A stretch of DNA of 34,406 nt from Veillonellales bacterium. GTDB lineage: Bacteria; Bacillota; Negativicutes; JAAYSF01. The first letter of the stretch is position 1; each line of letters begins with the position of its first letter. The notes under the pieces are model-generated. The model was not told the origin of the DNA and searched no databases. It saw only the letters and a program-made list of their open reading frames with translations. Of the stretch, positions 16,965-32,944 are shown in pieces. The translations under genes were made by a program, and so were the position numbers. Location of the stretch: assembly GCA_039680175.1 (NCBI GenBank), contig JBDKTO010000005.1, forward strand, positions 1-34,406, given 5' to 3'.

Positions 16965-17822
16965 GTGACGAAATTAGTTGATTGTGCGCTAATGCCCCAT
17001 CCGCCCATCATGATTCCGGAAATAGGCGGCAGCGAGCTGAAAAAAATTCAGGCGACTGTTACGGCGGCTGAGCGGGTGGCGCAAATCATCAAAGAGGATA
17101 ACCCGCAAACAGTTGTGATCATCACCCCCCATGGCCCGGCTTTTAAGGATGCCGCCAGTATTAGCGTCCATCCCCGGCTGAAGGGGAATCTGAGTGCTTT
17201 TGGCGTGCCTGATGTGTCGGTGGGATTTGAAACCGATGGTTTGCTGATTCGGCATATTTTGAAACAGACCAAGCGGCTGGGAGTTAATTTGGTGGAACTG
17301 ACCGATGATCTGGCCAAGAGTTACCGGTTCCGGCTGGAACTGGATCACGGTGCCGTCATACCACTCTATTATTTACATAAAGCAGGCTTTAAGGGACAAC
17401 TTGTTCACTTGTCCATCGGCAGGCTGCCTTATGAAGAAATGTATACCTTTGGCAAAGCGGTCCAGGCGGCGATTGGAGCCTTGGACAAGCGAGTCGCTGT
17501 CATCGCCTCAGGGGATTTATCACACCGCCTGACAGTGGATGCACCGGCAGGCTACAGCCCCCGGGGGAAAGAATTCGACAGTCAGGTGTTAAGTGCCGTA
17601 AAGGATTTGGATGTAAAAACGCTGTTTCATATAGAGCCCGCTTTGGTAGAGGCGGCCGGAGAATGCGGCCTTCGTCCCATTTTCTTTTTGCTGGGCGTTG
17701 TTGGCGGCTTAGCAACTCAGACGGAAATTTTATCTTATGAAGGACCTTTTGGCGTAGGGTATGCTGTGGCACTGGTTCGTTTGCAGTCGGCTGAAAAGGG
17801 AGACGATGGCAATGCCCGCTGA
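16965..17822 (+). CDS. LigB/Memo-like protein of the AmmeMemoRadiSam module
   Basis: This 285-residue cytosolic protein belongs to the class III extradiol dioxygenase (LigB) fold, of which human MEMO1 is a member. Candidate metal-binding histidines lie in ALMPHPPIMIPEIG, VIITPHGPAF, LELDHGAVIPLYYL and IASGDLSHRL. It starts with GTG 16965 behind AAAAGGAGTGA. It is followed in overlap by an AMMECR1 protein and then a radical SAM enzyme. In many Clostridia the LigB and AMMECR1 parts form one polypeptide, while here they are separate. The family substrate is unknown to me, and no aromatic-ring degradation genes are nearby, so a catabolic dioxygenase is unlikely. Confidence 0.85.
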   Translation: MTKLVDCALMPHPPIMIPEIGGSELKKIQATVTAAERVAQIIKEDNPQTVVIITPHGPAFKDAASISVHPRLKGNLSAFGVPDVSVGFETDGLLIRHILKQTKRLGVNLVELTDDLAKSYRFRLELDHGAVIPLYYLHKAGFKGQLVHLSIGRLPYEEMYTFGKAVQAAIGALDKRVAVIASGDLSHRLTVDAPAGYSPRGKEFDSQVLSAVKDLDVKTLFHIEPALVEAAGECGLRPIFFLLGVVGGLATQTEILSYEGPFGVGYAVALVRLQSAEKGDDGNAR

Positions 17823-18327
17823 AAGTGCACCGGTTGTCCTGGCAAGGGAAAGTCTGACTTATTATTTGACAAACAACCGGCCGATGCTTCTGCCGGCAAA
17901 GCTGGCACCTGAATTAAGCGGACAGGCCGGGGTATTTGTCTCATTGAAGAAAAATGGCCGGCTGCGAGGCTGTATCGGCACTTTTCAGCCGACAACCGCT
18001 GCTATCGGCGCCGAAATTATCCAAAATGCCATTAGCGCCGGGACGGAAGATCCCCGGTTTCCGGCGGTAAAGCTGGCAGAACTAGCTGACATCACGATAT
18101 CAGTGGATGTTTTGGCAGCCCCCGAGGCGGTTGACAGTCCGGCACAGCTTGATCCGCAAAAATACGGAATTATTGTCCGGCGGGGCAGCCGTCGGGGACT
18201 TCTCCTGCCGATGCTGGCGGGAGTCGATACGGTGGCGGAACAGATTGCCATTGCCCGGGAAAAAGCCGGCATTTCACCAGGGGAAGAAATCGAATTATAC
18301 CGGTTTACCGTTACCCGATATACTTGA
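17812..18327 (+). CDS. amrA: AmmeMemoRadiSam system protein A (AMMECR1 domain)
   Basis: This is a 171-residue AMMECR1-domain protein, a fold conserved from archaea to humans. The hallmark GRLRGCIGTFQP lies near residue 50, followed by SAGTEDPRFPAVKLAEL, the beta strands ADITISVDVL and the PQKYGIIVRRGSRRGLLLP segment. Its start overlaps the preceding gene by 11 nt in another frame. AAAGGGAG at 17796-17802 fits the ATG at 17812 (9 nt) better than the one at 17806. Function is unassigned. A catalytic or RNA-binding role has been suggested for the family without proof known to me. Confidence 0.9.
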   Translation: MPAESAPVVLARESLTYYLTNNRPMLLPAKLAPELSGQAGVFVSLKKNGRLRGCIGTFQPTTAAIGAEIIQNAISAGTEDPRFPAVKLAELADITISVDVLAAPEAVDSPAQLDPQKYGIIVRRGSRRGLLLPMLAGVDTVAEQIAIAREKAGISPGEEIELYRFTVTRYT

Positions 18328-18342
18328 CGGCAGGTGATTTGA

Positions 18343-19335
18343 ATGCGGGAAGCTATGTATTATCAGCCACAGGCAGCAGGCGTAGCGGCCTGTGGGCTAT
18401 GTCCGAAAGGCTGTATGATTGGTGAAGGCGGAGCGGGATTTTGCCGGGTTCGCAAAAATACCGGCGGCAAATTGTTTACGGAAAACTATGGACAGGTATC
18501 CTCTTATGCGTTAGATCCAATCGAAAAAAAACCGCTGTATCATTTCTATCCCGGCAGCTATATTCTGTCTCTCGGTACCTGGGGTTGTAATTTTTCCTGC
18601 CGGTTTTGCCAGAACTGGCAGATTTCCCAGACCAGTCCCCACACGCTGGAGCTTTTGCCGGAAGCTGCGGTCCGGCTGGCCAGGGAGCAGGGTGAGAAGA
18701 ATATCGGCTTGGCCTTTACCTATTCCGAACCAACGGTCTGGTATGAATATATTTTGGATACTGCCCAGGCTTGTCGCCGGCAGGGATTAAAAACCGTATT
18801 GGTAACCAACGGATATATCAATCCGGAACCCCTTGACAAGCTTTTGCCTTATATCGACGCTATGAATATTGACGTAAAAGCGTTTAACCCGGAATTTTAC
18901 CGGCAAATCTGCGCCGGCAGTTTAGCCGACGTGAAGCAAACGGTAGAAAGAGCGGCGGGCCGCTGTCATGTGGAGATTACTACGCTGCTGATTCCGGGAC
19001 TGAATGATGGGGCGGGGGAACTGAAGAAACTGGCACAATGGCTGTCGGGAATTGATCCGGCTATTCCTTTGCATTTTTCCCGCTATTTTCCCAATTATCG
19101 GCTGGATGTACCGCCGACACCCCTGGATACGATGGAGCAGGCCAGGGAGGTTGCCGGCCGTTTTTTGTCTTATGTATATCTTGGCAATGTGGGCTTGCAG
19201 GCGGGAAATACGTATTGTCCGGACTGCGGCTGTTTGGTTATTGACCGTACCCGGCGCCAGAGCTTGCTGACCGGAGACAAAAAATGCCCCCAATGCGGCA
19301 GCTTGTCGGCAATTACCGGCGAGATCCGCTATTGA
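18343..19335 (+). CDS. amrS: AmmeMemoRadiSam system radical SAM enzyme
   Basis: This 330-residue radical SAM enzyme has its 4Fe-4S cluster bound by the CxxxCxxC motif at Cys82, Cys86 and Cys89 (TWGCNFSCRFCQNWQIS). Before it lies a Cys-rich N terminus (CGLCPKGCMIGEGGAGFCRV), reminiscent of glycyl-radical-activating enzymes. At the end sits a zinc-ribbon-like pair (YCPDCGC, then KCPQCGS, residues about 290-320). Conserved downstream motifs include TYSEPTVWYEY and NIDVKAFNPEFY. It is the third gene of the module, 15 nt after amrA. The substrate is unknown. A second ATG (MYYQPQ) at 18355 is possible. Confidence 0.92.
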   Translation: MREAMYYQPQAAGVAACGLCPKGCMIGEGGAGFCRVRKNTGGKLFTENYGQVSSYALDPIEKKPLYHFYPGSYILSLGTWGCNFSCRFCQNWQISQTSPHTLELLPEAAVRLAREQGEKNIGLAFTYSEPTVWYEYILDTAQACRRQGLKTVLVTNGYINPEPLDKLLPYIDAMNIDVKAFNPEFYRQICAGSLADVKQTVERAAGRCHVEITTLLIPGLNDGAGELKKLAQWLSGIDPAIPLHFSRYFPNYRLDVPPTPLDTMEQAREVAGRFLSYVYLGNVGLQAGNTYCPDCGCLVIDRTRRQSLLTGDKKCPQCGSLSAITGEIRY

Positions 19336-19424: not shown

Positions 19425-20459
19425 ATGAAGGTTAGTATTATCGGGGCAACCGGTTATACCGGAGAAGAATTACTTCGGCTGTTAAGCCGTCATCCGGCAG
19501 TCGAAATTACCCATATTACATCCGAAAGTCATACAGGAACACCTATCAGTGATATATATCCTCATCTTACCCGCTTCCAGGGGAAAAAGCTGGAAAGCTT
19601 GCAGCAGCTTGACAGCATCGCTGCCGACAGCGATGCTGTATTTATCGGTCTGCCTCACGGCCATGCTATGGCAGTCGGCAAGCAGCTGGCAGGTACGGGG
19701 GTTAAAATTATCGATCTGGGGGCGGATTACCGGTTCCGTGATCCGGCAGTATATGAACAGTGGTATAAAGTCCCCCATACTCATCCTGAGGCGCAGGCAG
19801 TGTACGGGCTGACCGAATTATATCGTGAACAGATCAAGCGGGCTGCCATCGTTGGCAACCCCGGCTGCTTTACAACCGCCAGTATTCTGGCCTTGGCGCC
19901 CTTGGTCAAAAACGGTTTGATTGCGTTAAACAGTATTATCGTGGATGCCAAATCCGGCGTGTCGGGTGCCGGCCGGGGACTCAGTCTCAACAACCACTTC
20001 ACCGAGGCTTTTGAAAATGTAAAGGCTTATAACATTGGCGGTCATCGCCACACGCCGGAAATAGAGCAGGCGCTGGCAGAACTGTCCGGCAGTGAAGTAG
20101 TGATTAGCTTTACGCCTCATCTTATCCCCATGGCCAGAGGTATACTCAGCACCTGCTATGGGACGCTGAAGCCGGGGGTAGCACCGGAAGCCGTGGATGA
20201 AGCCTATACGGCATTTTATGAAGATGAATTTTTTATTCGCCTGCTGGGACGGGGCGGCTATCCGTCTACGAAATTTACCCGGGGCTCAAACTTCTGCGAT
20301 ATTGGCTGGCATGTTGACAGCCGCACTAACCGGGTGATTGCTCTGTCTGCTATTGATAATCTGGTCAAAGGCGCTGCCGGTCAGGCAGTACAAAATTTTA
20401 ACGTATTATTTGGTTTGGACGAGAAAAGCGGCTTGGAACAGGCCCCGCTGTATCCGTGA
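19425..20459 (+). CDS. argC: N-acetyl-gamma-glutamyl-phosphate reductase
   Basis: This enzyme performs the NADPH-dependent reduction of N-acetylglutamyl phosphate to the semialdehyde, the third step of arginine synthesis. The 344-residue product has the N-terminal nucleotide-binding motif GATGYTGEELLRLL, the catalytic Cys148 in GNPGCFTTASIL, the KSGVSGAGRG loop and the C-terminal NFCDIGWHVD segment. It is the first gene of argCJBDFGH and lies directly behind the ARG-box promoter. A 246-nt non-coding gap with a heptamer array separates it from argJ. Confidence 0.97.
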   Translation: MKVSIIGATGYTGEELLRLLSRHPAVEITHITSESHTGTPISDIYPHLTRFQGKKLESLQQLDSIAADSDAVFIGLPHGHAMAVGKQLAGTGVKIIDLGADYRFRDPAVYEQWYKVPHTHPEAQAVYGLTELYREQIKRAAIVGNPGCFTTASILALAPLVKNGLIALNSIIVDAKSGVSGAGRGLSLNNHFTEAFENVKAYNIGGHRHTPEIEQALAELSGSEVVISFTPHLIPMARGILSTCYGTLKPGVAPEAVDEAYTAFYEDEFFIRLLGRGGYPSTKFTRGSNFCDIGWHVDSRTNRVIALSAIDNLVKGAAGQAVQNFNVLFGLDEKSGLEQAPLYP

Positions 20460-20461
20460 GA

Positions 20462-20673
20462 ATAGCAGTTGGCTATGGGCACTTGGCACTTAGCGAAGTA
20501 ATAGAAGATAAAGGAAGTCAGCCTCTATGCCCTTAGCCAAGTCCCCAGTTCCAACTCCCAAGTCCCAAGTGCCATGAGCTATGAGCCATGAGCTATGCGC
20601 CATGAGCCAAGTCCCCCGTCCCAAGTTCCAAGTCCCAAGTCCCATGCGCCAATAGCCATACGCCAAAAACTAT
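20462..20673. repeat. Degenerate 7-bp tandem repeat array, argC-argJ gap
   Basis: From 20534 to 20666 the sequence parses without a break into 19 heptamers (TAGCCAA, GTCCCCA, GTTCCAA, CTCCCAA, GTCCCAA, GTGCCAT, GAGCTAT, GAGCCAT and so on), with consensus close to G-[TA]-[CG]-C-C-A-[AT]. A 20th, AAACTAT, ends at 20673. To the left, 20462-20489 holds four heptamers in the opposite orientation (complements CTGCTAT, TAGCCAA, GTGCCCA, GTGCCAA). About 44 nt of unrelated sequence lies between. The opposed arms could form an imperfect stem. No open reading frame or terminator is seen here, so argJ must be reached by read-through. Confidence 0.85.
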
Positions 20674-20705
20674 CAAACTAGAGTCTATATATTGGAGGTC
20701 ATTAT

Positions 20706-21914
20706 ATGCTTAAACAAATACAGGGCGGTATTACCGAACCTAAAGGATTCAAGGCTGCCGGCGTCAAGGCCGGCATTAAAAAAAGCGGCAAGGAAGACTT
20801 AGCGATTATCTACAGTATCGTTCCGGCGGCGACAGCGGCAGTGTTTACTCAGAACGTAATGGCGGCTGCTCCCGTAATCGTATCCCGGAAGACGGTGGAA
20901 AATGGAACAGCATCCGCGATTGTGGTTAACTCAGGCTGCGCCAATGCCTGTACGGGAGAACAGGGCTTAGCAGATGCCAAGGCGATGGCCCATATTACGG
21001 CCTCCGAGCTGGGTATACAGGATGATGAAGTGCTGGTGGCATCCACCGGTATTATTGGAGTAACGATGCCGATGGACAAAATTTCCGCCGGAATTAAGAA
21101 AGCGGTAGCCGAACTGTCGGCAGACAACCACGAAAGTGCCAGACAGGCGATCCTGACTACCGATACTTTTCCCAAATCGGTAGTATGTGAGTTTCAATTA
21201 GGTGAGTATACCACCCGTATTGCCGGTATTGCCAAGGGGTCAGGGATGATTCAGCCCAATATGGCCACGATGCTGTCCTTTATTACCACCGATATTACCA
21301 TTGCACCTGCTTTGCTGAAAAAAGCTTTGACGAAAGCGGTCGCTATTTCGTTTAATATGATTACCGTTGACGGGGATACAAGCACGAATGATATGGTAAG
21401 TGTCATGGCCAATGGAATGGCCGGCAATCCGGTTATTGACGACGAAAATAGTCCGGTATATCACAATTTCTATTTAGCGCTGGAGGCAGTCTGCATTTGT
21501 CTGGCTAAACAAGTTGCCCGGGACGGCGAAGGCGCCACCAAGTTTTTAGAAGTACAAGTAAAAGGCGCCAATGATTTTGCCGATGCCAAGAAAACAGCGA
21601 TGGCCGTCGCCAGATCGCCGCTTGTCAAAACCGCATTCTTTGGTCAGGATCCTAACTGGGGCCGTATTTTGTGCGCTGTCGGTTATTCGGAAGCCGCTGT
21701 GGTGCCGGAAAAAACAGGGTTGACCATTGGCGGCATTCAGATTGTAGCAGGCGGTTTAGCGACCCAGTATGACGAAAAAGCGCTGCGGGCAGTGATGGCC
21801 GCCCATGACATCAGCATGACGGTTGATTTGGGCCTGGGCAGGGCGGAAGCCACCGTATGGACCTGCGATTTTTCCTACGAGTACGTAAAAATTAATGGGG
21901 AATACCATACCTGA
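20706..21914 (+). CDS. argJ: Bifunctional ornithine acetyltransferase/N-acetylglutamate synthase
   Basis: ArgJ recycles the acetyl group from N-acetylornithine to glutamate, and many versions also make N-acetylglutamate from acetyl-CoA. The 402-residue precursor self-cleaves before a Thr in KGSGMIQPNMATMLSF. Here that is Thr188, giving alpha (1-187) and beta (188-402) chains. Other conserved parts are VNSGCANACTG and DPNWGRILCAVGYS. With argJ present, the operon encodes the cyclic pathway. ATG 20706 lies behind GGAGG. Confidence 0.97.
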   Translation: MLKQIQGGITEPKGFKAAGVKAGIKKSGKEDLAIIYSIVPAATAAVFTQNVMAAAPVIVSRKTVENGTASAIVVNSGCANACTGEQGLADAKAMAHITASELGIQDDEVLVASTGIIGVTMPMDKISAGIKKAVAELSADNHESARQAILTTDTFPKSVVCEFQLGEYTTRIAGIAKGSGMIQPNMATMLSFITTDITIAPALLKKALTKAVAISFNMITVDGDTSTNDMVSVMANGMAGNPVIDDENSPVYHNFYLALEAVCICLAKQVARDGEGATKFLEVQVKGANDFADAKKTAMAVARSPLVKTAFFGQDPNWGRILCAVGYSEAAVVPEKTGLTIGGIQIVAGGLATQYDEKALRAVMAAHDISMTVDLGLGRAEATVWTCDFSYEYVKINGEYHT

Positions 21915-24071: not shown

Positions 24072-24092
24072 TGTAAAATGGGGGACATACCA

Positions 24093-25025
24093 ATGAGTAT
24101 GAAAGGAAAAGATTTATTATCGATTCATGATTTATCAATTGCGGAAGTGGACGAAATTCTGGATATGGCCCAAACTCTTAAGGCCAGACAGAAACAAGGC
24201 AAGAAACATAAACTGTTAAAAGGCAAAACCCTGGGGATGATCTTTCAGAAATCGTCCACCCGGACGCGGGTATCTTTTGAAGTCGGTATGTATCAATTGG
24301 GCGGTTCGGCTCTATTCTTAAGCTCCCATGATCTGCAGATCGGACGGGGTGAACCTGTAAAAGACACGGCGCGGGTATTGTCCCGCTATGTTGACGGGAT
24401 TATGATTCGTACCTTTTCCCATGATGAGGTCAAAGAACTAGCCGAATATGCAACCGTTCCGGTAATCAATGCCCTGACAGATTTATTGCATCCCTGTCAG
24501 GCTTTAACCGATATTTTTACGGCGAGGGAATACAAGGGCGACCTGAAAGGCCGGAAAATGGCTTTTATCGGCGACGGCAACAATATGGTTCATGCCTTGA
24601 TGCATGCCTGTGCCAAGGTCGGTATGGATATTGCCGTGGCGACACCGGCGAATTACACGCCAAACGAGATGATCGTGGCGGAAGCGCGGGAAGATGCCAA
24701 GCTAACCGGCAGCAAAATCATTTTAGGTAATGATCCCCTGGAAGCGGCAAAAGACGCGGATGTGCTGTATACCGATGTCTGGGCCAGTATGGGTCAGGAA
24801 GCAGAGCAGGCAGCCAGAATGAAAGCTTTTACCAATTTCCAAATAAACGACCAAACCATGTCAGTGGCTCAGAAAGATGCCATTGTACTCCACTGCCTGC
24901 CTGCTCACCGGGGCGAGGAAATCACCGATGAGGTGATAGAAGGTCCCCAGTCGGCGGTTTTCGACGAAGCGGAAAATCGGCTTCACGTACAAAAGGCAAT
25001 CATGGCTCTGTTAATGGGAGAGTAG
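24093..25025 (+). CDS. argF: Ornithine carbamoyltransferase
   Basis: ArgF joins carbamoyl phosphate and ornithine to make citrulline. The 310-residue product has the carbamoyl-phosphate motif STRTR at residues 55-59, [10 protein letters not shown], the [10 protein letters not shown] segment, [10 protein letters not shown] and the ornithine-binding [11 protein letters not shown]. The frame begins at ATG 24078, but GGGGGA at 24080-24085 marks the ATG at 24093 as the start ([10 protein letters not shown]). An anabolic role fits its place inside the arginine operon. Confidence 0.97.
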
Positions 25026-25026
25026 A

Positions 25027-25118
25027 GAAGCTATGAGCTGTTGGCTGTGAGCTATGGGCTGAAAACCAACAGCCCAAAGCCCAAAGCGAATAGCTCATAG
25101 CCAACAACCATGAGCCAT
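25027..25118. repeat. Degenerate 7-bp repeat array, argF-argG gap
   Basis: The left arm (25027-25061) reads as five heptamers in reverse orientation (complements TAGCTTC, CAGCTCA, CAGCCAA, TAGCTCA, CAGCCCA). The right arm (25070-25118) reads as seven forward heptamers (CAGCCCA, AAGCCCA, AAGCGAA, TAGCTCA, TAGCCAA, CAACCAT, GAGCCAT). The innermost units pair perfectly (7 bp, 8-nt loop). The next two left units pair with TAGCTCA-TAGCCAA (13 of 14 plus one G-U) after a 14-nt bulge. It is the same kind of element as the argC-argJ array. Confidence 0.85.
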
Positions 25119-25142
25119 CTATTTACAAGGAGGAGTTTGAAA

Positions 25143-26351
25143 ATGAGTGACGTTAAAAAAGTAGTATTAGCTTATTCCGGTGGTCTGGATACCTCAGTTA
25201 TTATTCCGTGGCTGAAAGAAAATTATGACTGCGAAGTTATTGCCATGTGCGCCGATATCGGTCAAGGCGACGAACTGGCTCCGGTCAGGGAAAAGGCGCT
25301 CAAATCCGGTGCCAGCAAAGTGTATATTGAGGATTTAACCAAAGAATTCGTGGAAGATTACATATGGCCGACACTGAAAGCCGGTGCAATTTATGAAGGC
25401 AAGTATCTGCTGGGGACTTCTTTTGCCCGTCCGCTCATTGCCAAGGCACTTGTAAGAATTGCCGAACTGGAAGGTGCGGATGCTATTTCTCATGGCGCTA
25501 CCGGTAAAGGCAACGACCAGGTACGGTTTGAACTGACAGTTAAGGCTTTGGCACCGCAGCTGAAAATTATTGCCCCCTGGCGGCTGTGGGATATCCGCTC
25601 CCGGGAAGATGCCATTGATTATGCGGCAAAACACAACATTCCGGTACCGGTAACCAAAAAGCGCCCTTACAGCATGGATCGGAATATTTGGCATCTGAGC
25701 CATGAAGGCGCCGACCTGGAAAATCCCTGGAATGAACCGAAAGACGACGTCTTTATGGTTACCACTACTCCGGAAAAAGCACCGGACAAAGCTGCTTATG
25801 TTGAGATTTCCTTCGAAAAAGGCATTCCGGTAGCGGTTGACGGAGAAAAACTGGATGCTGTTGCTCTGCTGGAAAAATTAAATAAATTAGGTACCGCCAA
25901 TGGTATCGGCATCACCGACATCGTGGAAAATCGTTTGGTAGGGATGAAATCCCGCGGTGTGTATGAAAATCCCGGCGGATCAATTTTGTATTACGCTCAC
26001 CGGGAACTGGAATATTTGACCCTTGACCGGGCTACCCTGCATTATAAAGAACAAGTCGCTGTGCGTTATGGTGAATTGGTTTATGACGGAATGTGGTTTG
26101 CTCAGTTGAAAGAGGCTCTGGATGCTTTCGTCAATTCCACCCAGGAGACTGTAACCGGTGTCGTACGGTTAAAATTATATAAAGGCAATATTATCAGTGC
26201 CGGTTCCAAGTCGCCATACTCTCTGTATCATGAAGGTTTTGTAACGTTCAGCCGGGATGAAGTGTACAATCAGGCCGATGCGGAAGGCTTTATCAACTTG
26301 TTTGGTTTGCCCCTGAAAGTTCGGGCGTTAATGCAAAAGGGAGCGAAATAG
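25143..26351 (+). CDS. argG: Argininosuccinate synthase
   Basis: ArgG makes argininosuccinate from citrulline, aspartate and ATP. The 402-residue product begins [20 protein letters not shown], with the PP-loop SGGLDTS, and continues with [30 protein letters not shown] and the C-terminal [13 protein letters not shown]. The frame is open upstream across the repeat, but AAGGAGGA at 25127-25134 supports the ATG at 25143. argH follows after 2 nt. Confidence 0.97.
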
Positions 26352-32733: not shown

Positions 32734-32765
32734 AAAATGGAATTCAGCCGAAAATAACGAGAAAA

Positions 32766-32904
32766 GCGCTGGTGCTTGTTTGTTGTCAGACAAGCAGACG
32801 AGGCAGGGGTTTATCGAATTGTCAGCGGGTGCCCCTCGGCTGGTGCGGCCGTGAGAACGTCGACAAAACCATAAGGCGACTTATGGGACAAAACGGCGGA
32901 GCAA
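32766..32904 (+). promoter_or_regulatory. glmS ribozyme (glucosamine-6-phosphate riboswitch)
   Basis: This self-cleaving RNA uses glucosamine-6-phosphate as cofactor and destabilises the glmS mRNA. The conserved core is seen in GACGAGGCAGGGGTTTATCG (32798-32817) and then AATTGTCAGCGGGTGCCCCTC (32818-32838). The 5' strand of P1, CGCT, pairs with AGCG, while other glmS ribozymes I recall have CGCC with GGCG, a compensatory change. P2 forms from GCTTGT/ACAAGC. The 3' part has CCATAAG-GCGA-CTTATGG (32869-32886), a GNRA hairpin, inside CGTCG/CGGCG. Cleavage is expected between A32765 and G32766. glmS starts 41 nt after it. Confidence 0.94.
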
Positions 32905-32944
32905 TTGATTTATTATTTTGTAAAAATTAGGAGGAATTTACCCT

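Follow-up and report, generated by a model that had tools for sequence, protein, structure and literature searches.

Two arrays of a dispersed, degenerate heptamer family lie in the arginine operon of a Veillonellales bacterium

Introduction

In the arginine operon of a Veillonellales bacterium (GenBank assembly GCA_039680175.1), the gap between argC and argJ carries a long run of degenerate 7-nt units. This raises the questions of what such an array is, whether it serves the arginine genes, and how it came to lie between them. The stretch analyzed here, which we refer to as the window, comprises positions 1 to 34,406 of contig JBDKTO010000005.1. An initial annotation of the window had described an uninterrupted series of 19 heptamers, likened it to the STRR-type repeats of cyanobacteria, and proposed, among other origins and roles, slippage or an RNA element that uncouples argC from argJ.

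Tandem repetition with a period of 7 is itself a widespread prokaryotic phenomenon that is not specific to the arginine operon: the SPADE survey, covering widely differing species, found 7 more often than any other intergenic tandem period, with no clue to its function (PMC6344855). The GGGAATC repeats of Xanthomonas (Rehm et al. 2015, PMC4692102) are degenerate around a conserved core, dispersed and mostly intergenic; they lie near stop codons, are scarce between divergent genes, and form 70 to 75 convergent G-rich/C-rich inverted pairs per genome. Near gene starts their G-rich strand is the noncoding one, the gene sites that they occupy are not common to different species, they are largely G4-capable, and no association with mobile elements was found (PMC4692102). 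The GGGGA(C/T)T repeats of Nostoc and the STRR heptamers of Calothrix are tandem heptamers found genome-wide in gaps, those of Nostoc being 68% intergenic and of G4 type, with few inverted pairs (PMC4692102). TAACTGA repeats are found in Beggiatoaceae and in some Cyanobacteria and Bacteroidetes (MacGregor 2015, PMC4679880), and work on DRT10 has established that bacteria are able to make templated tandem-repeat DNA (PMC12632851).

Results

Anatomy of the array between argC and argJ

The array between argC and argJ (array 1) has two arms of opposite orientation (Table 1). Within the right arm, the 133 nt from 20534 to 20666 divide into 19 heptamers in perfect register, with no insertion. Self-identity reached 0.71 at lags of 7 and 14 nt and 0.62 at a lag of 21 nt, compared with 0.09 to 0.31 at lags not divisible by 7, and period 7 at this site was the strongest signal in the window when periods 4 to 15 were compared. 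The arrays of the window were also recovered by TRF. In shuffled sequence (444 kb) the parser detected no arms, but it detected 99 in 1.0 Mb of real sequence, which excludes chance as the source of the arrays. The lag identities, the TRF result and the shuffled control thus uphold the series of 19 units as first described. The heptamers of opposite orientation noted to its left were indeed four in number, at a distance of about 39 nt from 20534 rather than the 45 nt initially given. Parsing with the fitted profile widened the right arm, which stops 22 nt before the argJ start and leaves the GGAGG untouched.

Annotation with NCBIfam gave the gene order argC-argJ-argB-argD-argF-argG-argH and thereby confirmed the arginine operon context. 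AmmeMemoRadiSam-type genes (system protein B and a radical SAM enzyme) lie directly upstream of the operon, at 16965-19335. Rfam families gave no match at the arrays; the sole match in the window was a glmS ribozyme (32754-32910; 101 bits) downstream of glmM. LpxC is present in this genome.

The RNA of array 1 was predicted to fold no better than shuffled sequences (z = -0.5), and neither a terminator-like (U-tract) nor a promoter-like site was found in the argC-argJ gap. Together with the lack of the insertion in 27 relatives (see below), these results lend no support to the suggestion that array 1 acts as an RNA element to uncouple argC and argJ. Its minus strand contains four G-tracts of at least 3 nt.

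Table 1. Features in and around the two arrays of the arginine operon (window coordinates)
Feature	Positions	Strand	Remarks
argC, upstream of array 1	19425-20459	+	NCBIfam TIGR01850
Array 1, left arm	20462-20494	+	four TRG-orientation heptamers (TTGGC, TGGGC, TTGGC, TTAGC); starts 2 nt past argC stop codon
Array 1, spacer between arms	20495-20522	.	nonperiodic
Array 1, right arm	20523-20683	-	TRG units on minus strand (CYA on plus); 19-unit perfect-register core 20534-20666
argJ Shine-Dalgarno site	20694-20698	+	GGAGG, intact, immediately right of array 1
argJ, downstream of array 1	20706-21914	+	NCBIfam NF003802
argF, upstream of array 2	24078-25025	+	NCBIfam TIGR00658
Array 2	25029-25118	.	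G-rich arm, AAAA loop, C-rich arm; near-perfect hairpin
argG open frame	25110-26351	+	first codons inside array 2

A second array between argF and argG

The family has another array in this operon (array 2), which the initial annotation overlooked and which fills the argF-argG gap. Its RNA hairpin has a predicted energy of -46.6 kcal/mol (z = -8.2). Since homologues of argG align only from residue 9 or 10, and since the first codons of the open frame fall within the array, the true start of argG is probably located after the GGAGG near 25130.

A genome-wide family with a shared unit

That the genome might hold further arrays was borne out: a search of the 4.08-Mb genome with the DNA of array 1 gave 71 matches, spread over 20 contigs. 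We analyzed 1.0 Mb of this genome, in stretches taken partly around matches and partly elsewhere, and found 74 arrays of period 7, whereas periods not divisible by 7 gave 0 to 2. Arms had a median length of 63 nt and a maximum of 386 nt. A core-free alignment of the 74 arrays converged on the unit profile [TA]-C-[TA]-T-R-G-C, which holds 5.02 bits of information, as opposed to 2.07 ± 0.08 bits when the columns of each array were shuffled. The main words were ATAGCTC, ATGGCTC, TTGGCTG, TTGGCAC, TTGGGAC and TTGGTAC, and of 28 distinct words, 21 had a TRG/CYA core, compared with an expectation of 12.6 ± 2.5. The shared profile and the enrichment of this core indicate that the arrays were not born independently from local sequence and that their units are common across loci. 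Arrays also showed in-register blocks of words and higher-order repeats of 14 and 21 nt, and a nonperiodic core, GAATTCAGTTNCCATTAC, recurred in four of them, in both orientations. The initial proposal of an origin by slippage therefore holds in part: the in-register blocks fit it, but it leaves the profile common to all 74 arrays unexplained. G-quadruplex (G4) formation is possible for only 2 of the 99 arms, and the word seen most often, ATAGCTC, lacks GG.

Array density was uneven, with one clear array (C7:13441-13522) in 251 kb of contigs picked regardless of matches. Array-bearing stretches mostly had a GC content of 48 to 50%, and many array-free contigs had one of 36 to 46%. Several low-GC contigs (36 to 41%; C3, C14, C17, C44, C77 and others) showed a different tetranucleotide usage and no arrays; such array-free contigs could be mobile DNA or contamination (reported as 4.33%). 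Contigs C8 (at position 1), C42 and C115 (both at their ends) begin or stop inside GAGCTAT arrays, as expected for long multicopy repeats, so that arrays evidently break the assembly and the real ones are longer than those assembled. Arrays collapse in short-read assemblies, and most array-carrying genomes of the class are drafts.

Position and polarity of the arms

Arrays were found in 37 tandem, 15 convergent and 1 divergent gap, compared with 156, 37 and 36, respectively, for background gaps of at least 100 nt; the gene context was taken from a simple ORF caller, and 15 arrays overlap ORF calls, mostly dubious ones. Stop codons lay within 40 nt of an array edge in 49 cases, mostly between -15 and +10 nt. 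The arrays fill the interval between a stop codon and the Shine-Dalgarno site that follows, and are rare in gaps with divergent promoters. Near gene starts, the mRNA-sense strand was the C-rich CYA strand in 17 of 20 cases (17:3), and in tandem gaps with a single arm the C-rich strand was in the mRNA by 23:7.

Neighboring arms that face in opposite directions follow a fixed order, G-rich and then C-rich. For pairs of complementary words, this genome gave a ratio of G-rich-first to the reverse of 15:1, and other array-rich members of the class gave 25:1; by skew alone the ratio was 37:2 in tandem gaps, 5:1 in divergent gaps and likewise, on few pairs, 5:1 in convergent ones. A universal polarity rule was rejected, since loci of other phyla gave 25:22. 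Outside the class, Treponema was G-rich-first (4:0) and an Elusimicrobia genome C-rich-first (4:1), and concordance within genomes was weak and not robust (permutation p of about 0.03 at two of three thresholds).

Within a genome, arms that belong to one element resembled each other no more than arms taken from different elements did (permutation p = 0.32, 0.59, 0.59, 0.51, 0.17 and 1.0). This speaks against local snap-back copying of one arm off the other, which we rejected, and suggests that each arm draws its units independently from a pool of words common to the genome. Two near-identical heptamer hairpins at different loci (L263, 7048-7107 and 15616-15670; G163) have loops of TTTT and AAAA, and look as though the loop or one arm had flipped.

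A palindrome adjoining the arms

A palindrome, TGTCATTGCGAG...CTCGCRATGACA, follows 21 of the 99 arms on the 3' side of the TRG strand and was seen once on the opposite side. It is imperfect, about 90 to 110 nt long, and begins with TGTCATTGCGAGCGGCAGCGAAGCAATCTC. More than half of the palindrome ends (18 of 33) are no farther than 100 nt from an array, a distance that covers just 2.3% of the sequence. The imperfect, MITE/REP-like palindrome TGTCATTGCGAGC...GCTCGCAATGACA occupies 38 sites in this genome (G000), C30:9597, C60:15584 and C117:88643 among them, and the palindrome was also present at a few sites in 4 of 39 relatives of the class. Neither array of the window has a palindrome, nor do most arms. 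The same motif was not found beside arrays in other phyla, and the literature searched, mostly without subscription papers, yielded only unrelated papers for the palindrome sequence. Slippage stalled by a hairpin where no palindrome is present was considered and rejected, the asymmetry between the upstream and downstream sides being weak (p = 0.04); loss of the hairpin nuclease SbcCD was likewise rejected, since SbcD is present.

Other arrays have neighbors of their own. In Treponema sp. Md513_bin18 (L160, L191, L136), GGGGAGT arms flank an unrelated palindromic core of the GTAGTACGCGC... type, and a repeated element, GGGGTGGCGCRAAGCGACGGGGTGTGTACG, adjoins heptamer arrays at L035 (9457-9509) and L032 (13594-13672).

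Lineage-specific insertion and wider distribution

Comparison of orthologous argC-argJ gaps, which the initial annotation had named as a check, revealed short gaps without the array in relatives: the gap measures 246 nt here, compared with 19 to 78 nt in 27 relatives, where it keeps the stop codon, a short spacer and the Shine-Dalgarno site. The argF-argG gap measures 114 nt here, compared with 45 and 49 nt in two genomes of the same family, in which heptamers are absent. As both gaps are longer than those of relatives, we conclude that two separate insertions into one operon occurred in this lineage.

Array 1 DNA had no match in 39 other genomes. The pattern (TRGNNNN)x7, whose reversed control was near zero in most genomes, was present in 64 of 380 genomes and 18 of 102 genera of the class and absent from both genomes of the same family. 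The pattern (TTGGNAC)x3.5 gave at least 119 stretches over more than 15 phyla. Period 7 dominates in many phyla, but TRG was not enriched among the words of other phyla (58 of 131, compared with 52.2 expected); the period is thus general and the core lineage-specific.

Discussion

The arrays belong to a kind of repeat that is already known, namely degenerate intergenic tandem heptamers with many dispersed copies near gene ends, and the likeness to STRR-type repeats stands. What is new is the family member itself, its degenerate core that does not form G-quadruplexes, its association with a palindrome and the evidence for independent arms. It resembles the Xanthomonas repeats in its convergent inverted pairs, its closeness to stop codons, its degenerate core and its lack of conservation between species, and differs from them in its TRG rather than GGGA core, in the scarcity of G4-capable arms and in the palindrome that adjoins about one-fifth of the arms. 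Words such as GTCCCCA are shared with Nostoc and Calothrix, whose core sequence differs. TAACTGA repeats are likewise intergenic tandem heptamers of scattered phylogenetic distribution, but consist of one fixed word in 2 to 6 copies upstream of gene starts, with virtually no inverted pairs. The SPADE survey, unlike the present work, did not analyze anatomy, polarity or dispersal.

The reading that we prefer, and to which we give an even chance, is that shared units disperse into intergenic sites, where 7-nt slippage and purifying selection on position then shape the arrays, with no dedicated role in arginine biosynthesis. Units from a genome-wide pool would be copied or added into intergenic sites, as the shared profile, the insertions and the recurrent nonperiodic cores suggest; the arrays would subsequently grow and shrink in 7-nt steps by slippage, producing blocks of words; and selection would purge insertions in coding sequence, promoters and Shine-Dalgarno sites, leaving the positions observed. 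Given that the ancestral gaps were short, insertion plus selection against damage suffices to account for these positions. Array 1 would be a copy of the N-T-R-G-N-N-N family (on the minus strand) inserted after the lineage had split from its relatives, and is most likely a nearly neutral dispersed or selfish spacer rather than a regulator of the arginine genes, its neutrality being our inference. Locally, the insertions would chiefly lengthen the untranslated mRNA that separates argC from argJ by about 200 nt and give the argF-argG gap a hairpin.

As a counterpoint to neutrality, a selected function could instead underlie both the polarity and the scarcity of arrays in divergent gaps. Arrays might be kept at gene ends as 3'-end, processing, Rho or mRNA-stability elements or as binding arrays, in line with their adjacency to stop codons, the C-rich bias of the mRNA strand near starts and in single-arm tandem gaps, and the strong hairpin of array 2; the polarity could also arise if G-rich RNA that resembles a Shine-Dalgarno site were selected against ahead of starts. 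However, the arrays are missing from the argC-argJ and argF-argG gaps of relatives, the RNA of array 1 appears unstructured and has no U-tract terminator or promoter beside it, and arm lengths range up to several times the median, so that we hold such a function to be rather unlikely. We also rate as unlikely, if slightly more credible, a composite mobile element in which the arms are the terminal inverted repeats of a MITE/REP-like hairpin moved by a transposase and single arrays are remnants. The fixed polarity, the one-sided palindrome and its concentration near arrays, and the Treponema GGGGAGT arms flanking another palindrome (L160, L191) are consistent with it. Two-arm elements and palindrome association do exist, yet most arms are single, most have no palindrome, and arms within an element are no more alike than between elements. 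Target-site duplications did not exceed chance, with a mean longest match of 5.3 nt, carried by one array-overlapping case, compared with 4.4 nt for mismatched flanks. Y1_Tnp was not associated with the arrays either, and a RAYT/Y1 transposase was rejected as the mover, since Y1 occurs in this genome but the array-rich G198 (the richest), G163 and G167 were not among the matching genomes.

Purely local slippage, by which 7 nt duplicated by chance at each site would have grown into the array there, was among the origins offered by the initial annotation and matches Mrazek's idea of polymerase slippage, as cited in PMC4679880. The in-register blocks, the higher-order repeats and the dominance of period 7 in many phyla (PMC6344855) fit this view, but independent origins would yield neither one profile over 74 loci nor the excess of the TRG/CYA core, and we regard it as already disfavoured and improbable. 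The G-quadruplex element proposed for Xanthomonas and Nostoc heptamers could draw on the four G-tracts of array 1; with so few capable arms and a commonest word that has no GG, it is scarcely credible for this family. A more speculative mechanism, which we consider a long shot, is that, where DNA is broken or nicked, its 3' ends gain TRG-type units from a genome-wide template before they are joined. Such end addition would create a head-to-head G-rich/C-rich layout resembling a telomere-fusion site and predicts polarity, single-arm arrays (where one end is extended), genome-specific words and independent arms; against it, several other phyla show the reverse polarity. The RVT_1 matches in the genome comprise two full-length reverse transcriptases and two short fragments, and no telomerase-like or DRT10-type enzyme was found among them, the full-length ones being of the group II intron type. 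DRT10 itself differs in its repeat, which is 9 nt in the best-studied case, and in making protein-primed cDNA.

Tandem heptamers are the most abundant intergenic tandem repeats across a wide range of prokaryotes and have been left without an explanation (PMC6344855). If end addition were true, it would point to a bacterial repair activity that adds repeats. Any explanation of heptamers has to accommodate shared degenerate units, a polarity fixed within the class, independence of the arms, mapped lineage-specific insertions and adjacency to a palindrome, and these constraints jointly speak against pure slippage and against a G-quadruplex reading.
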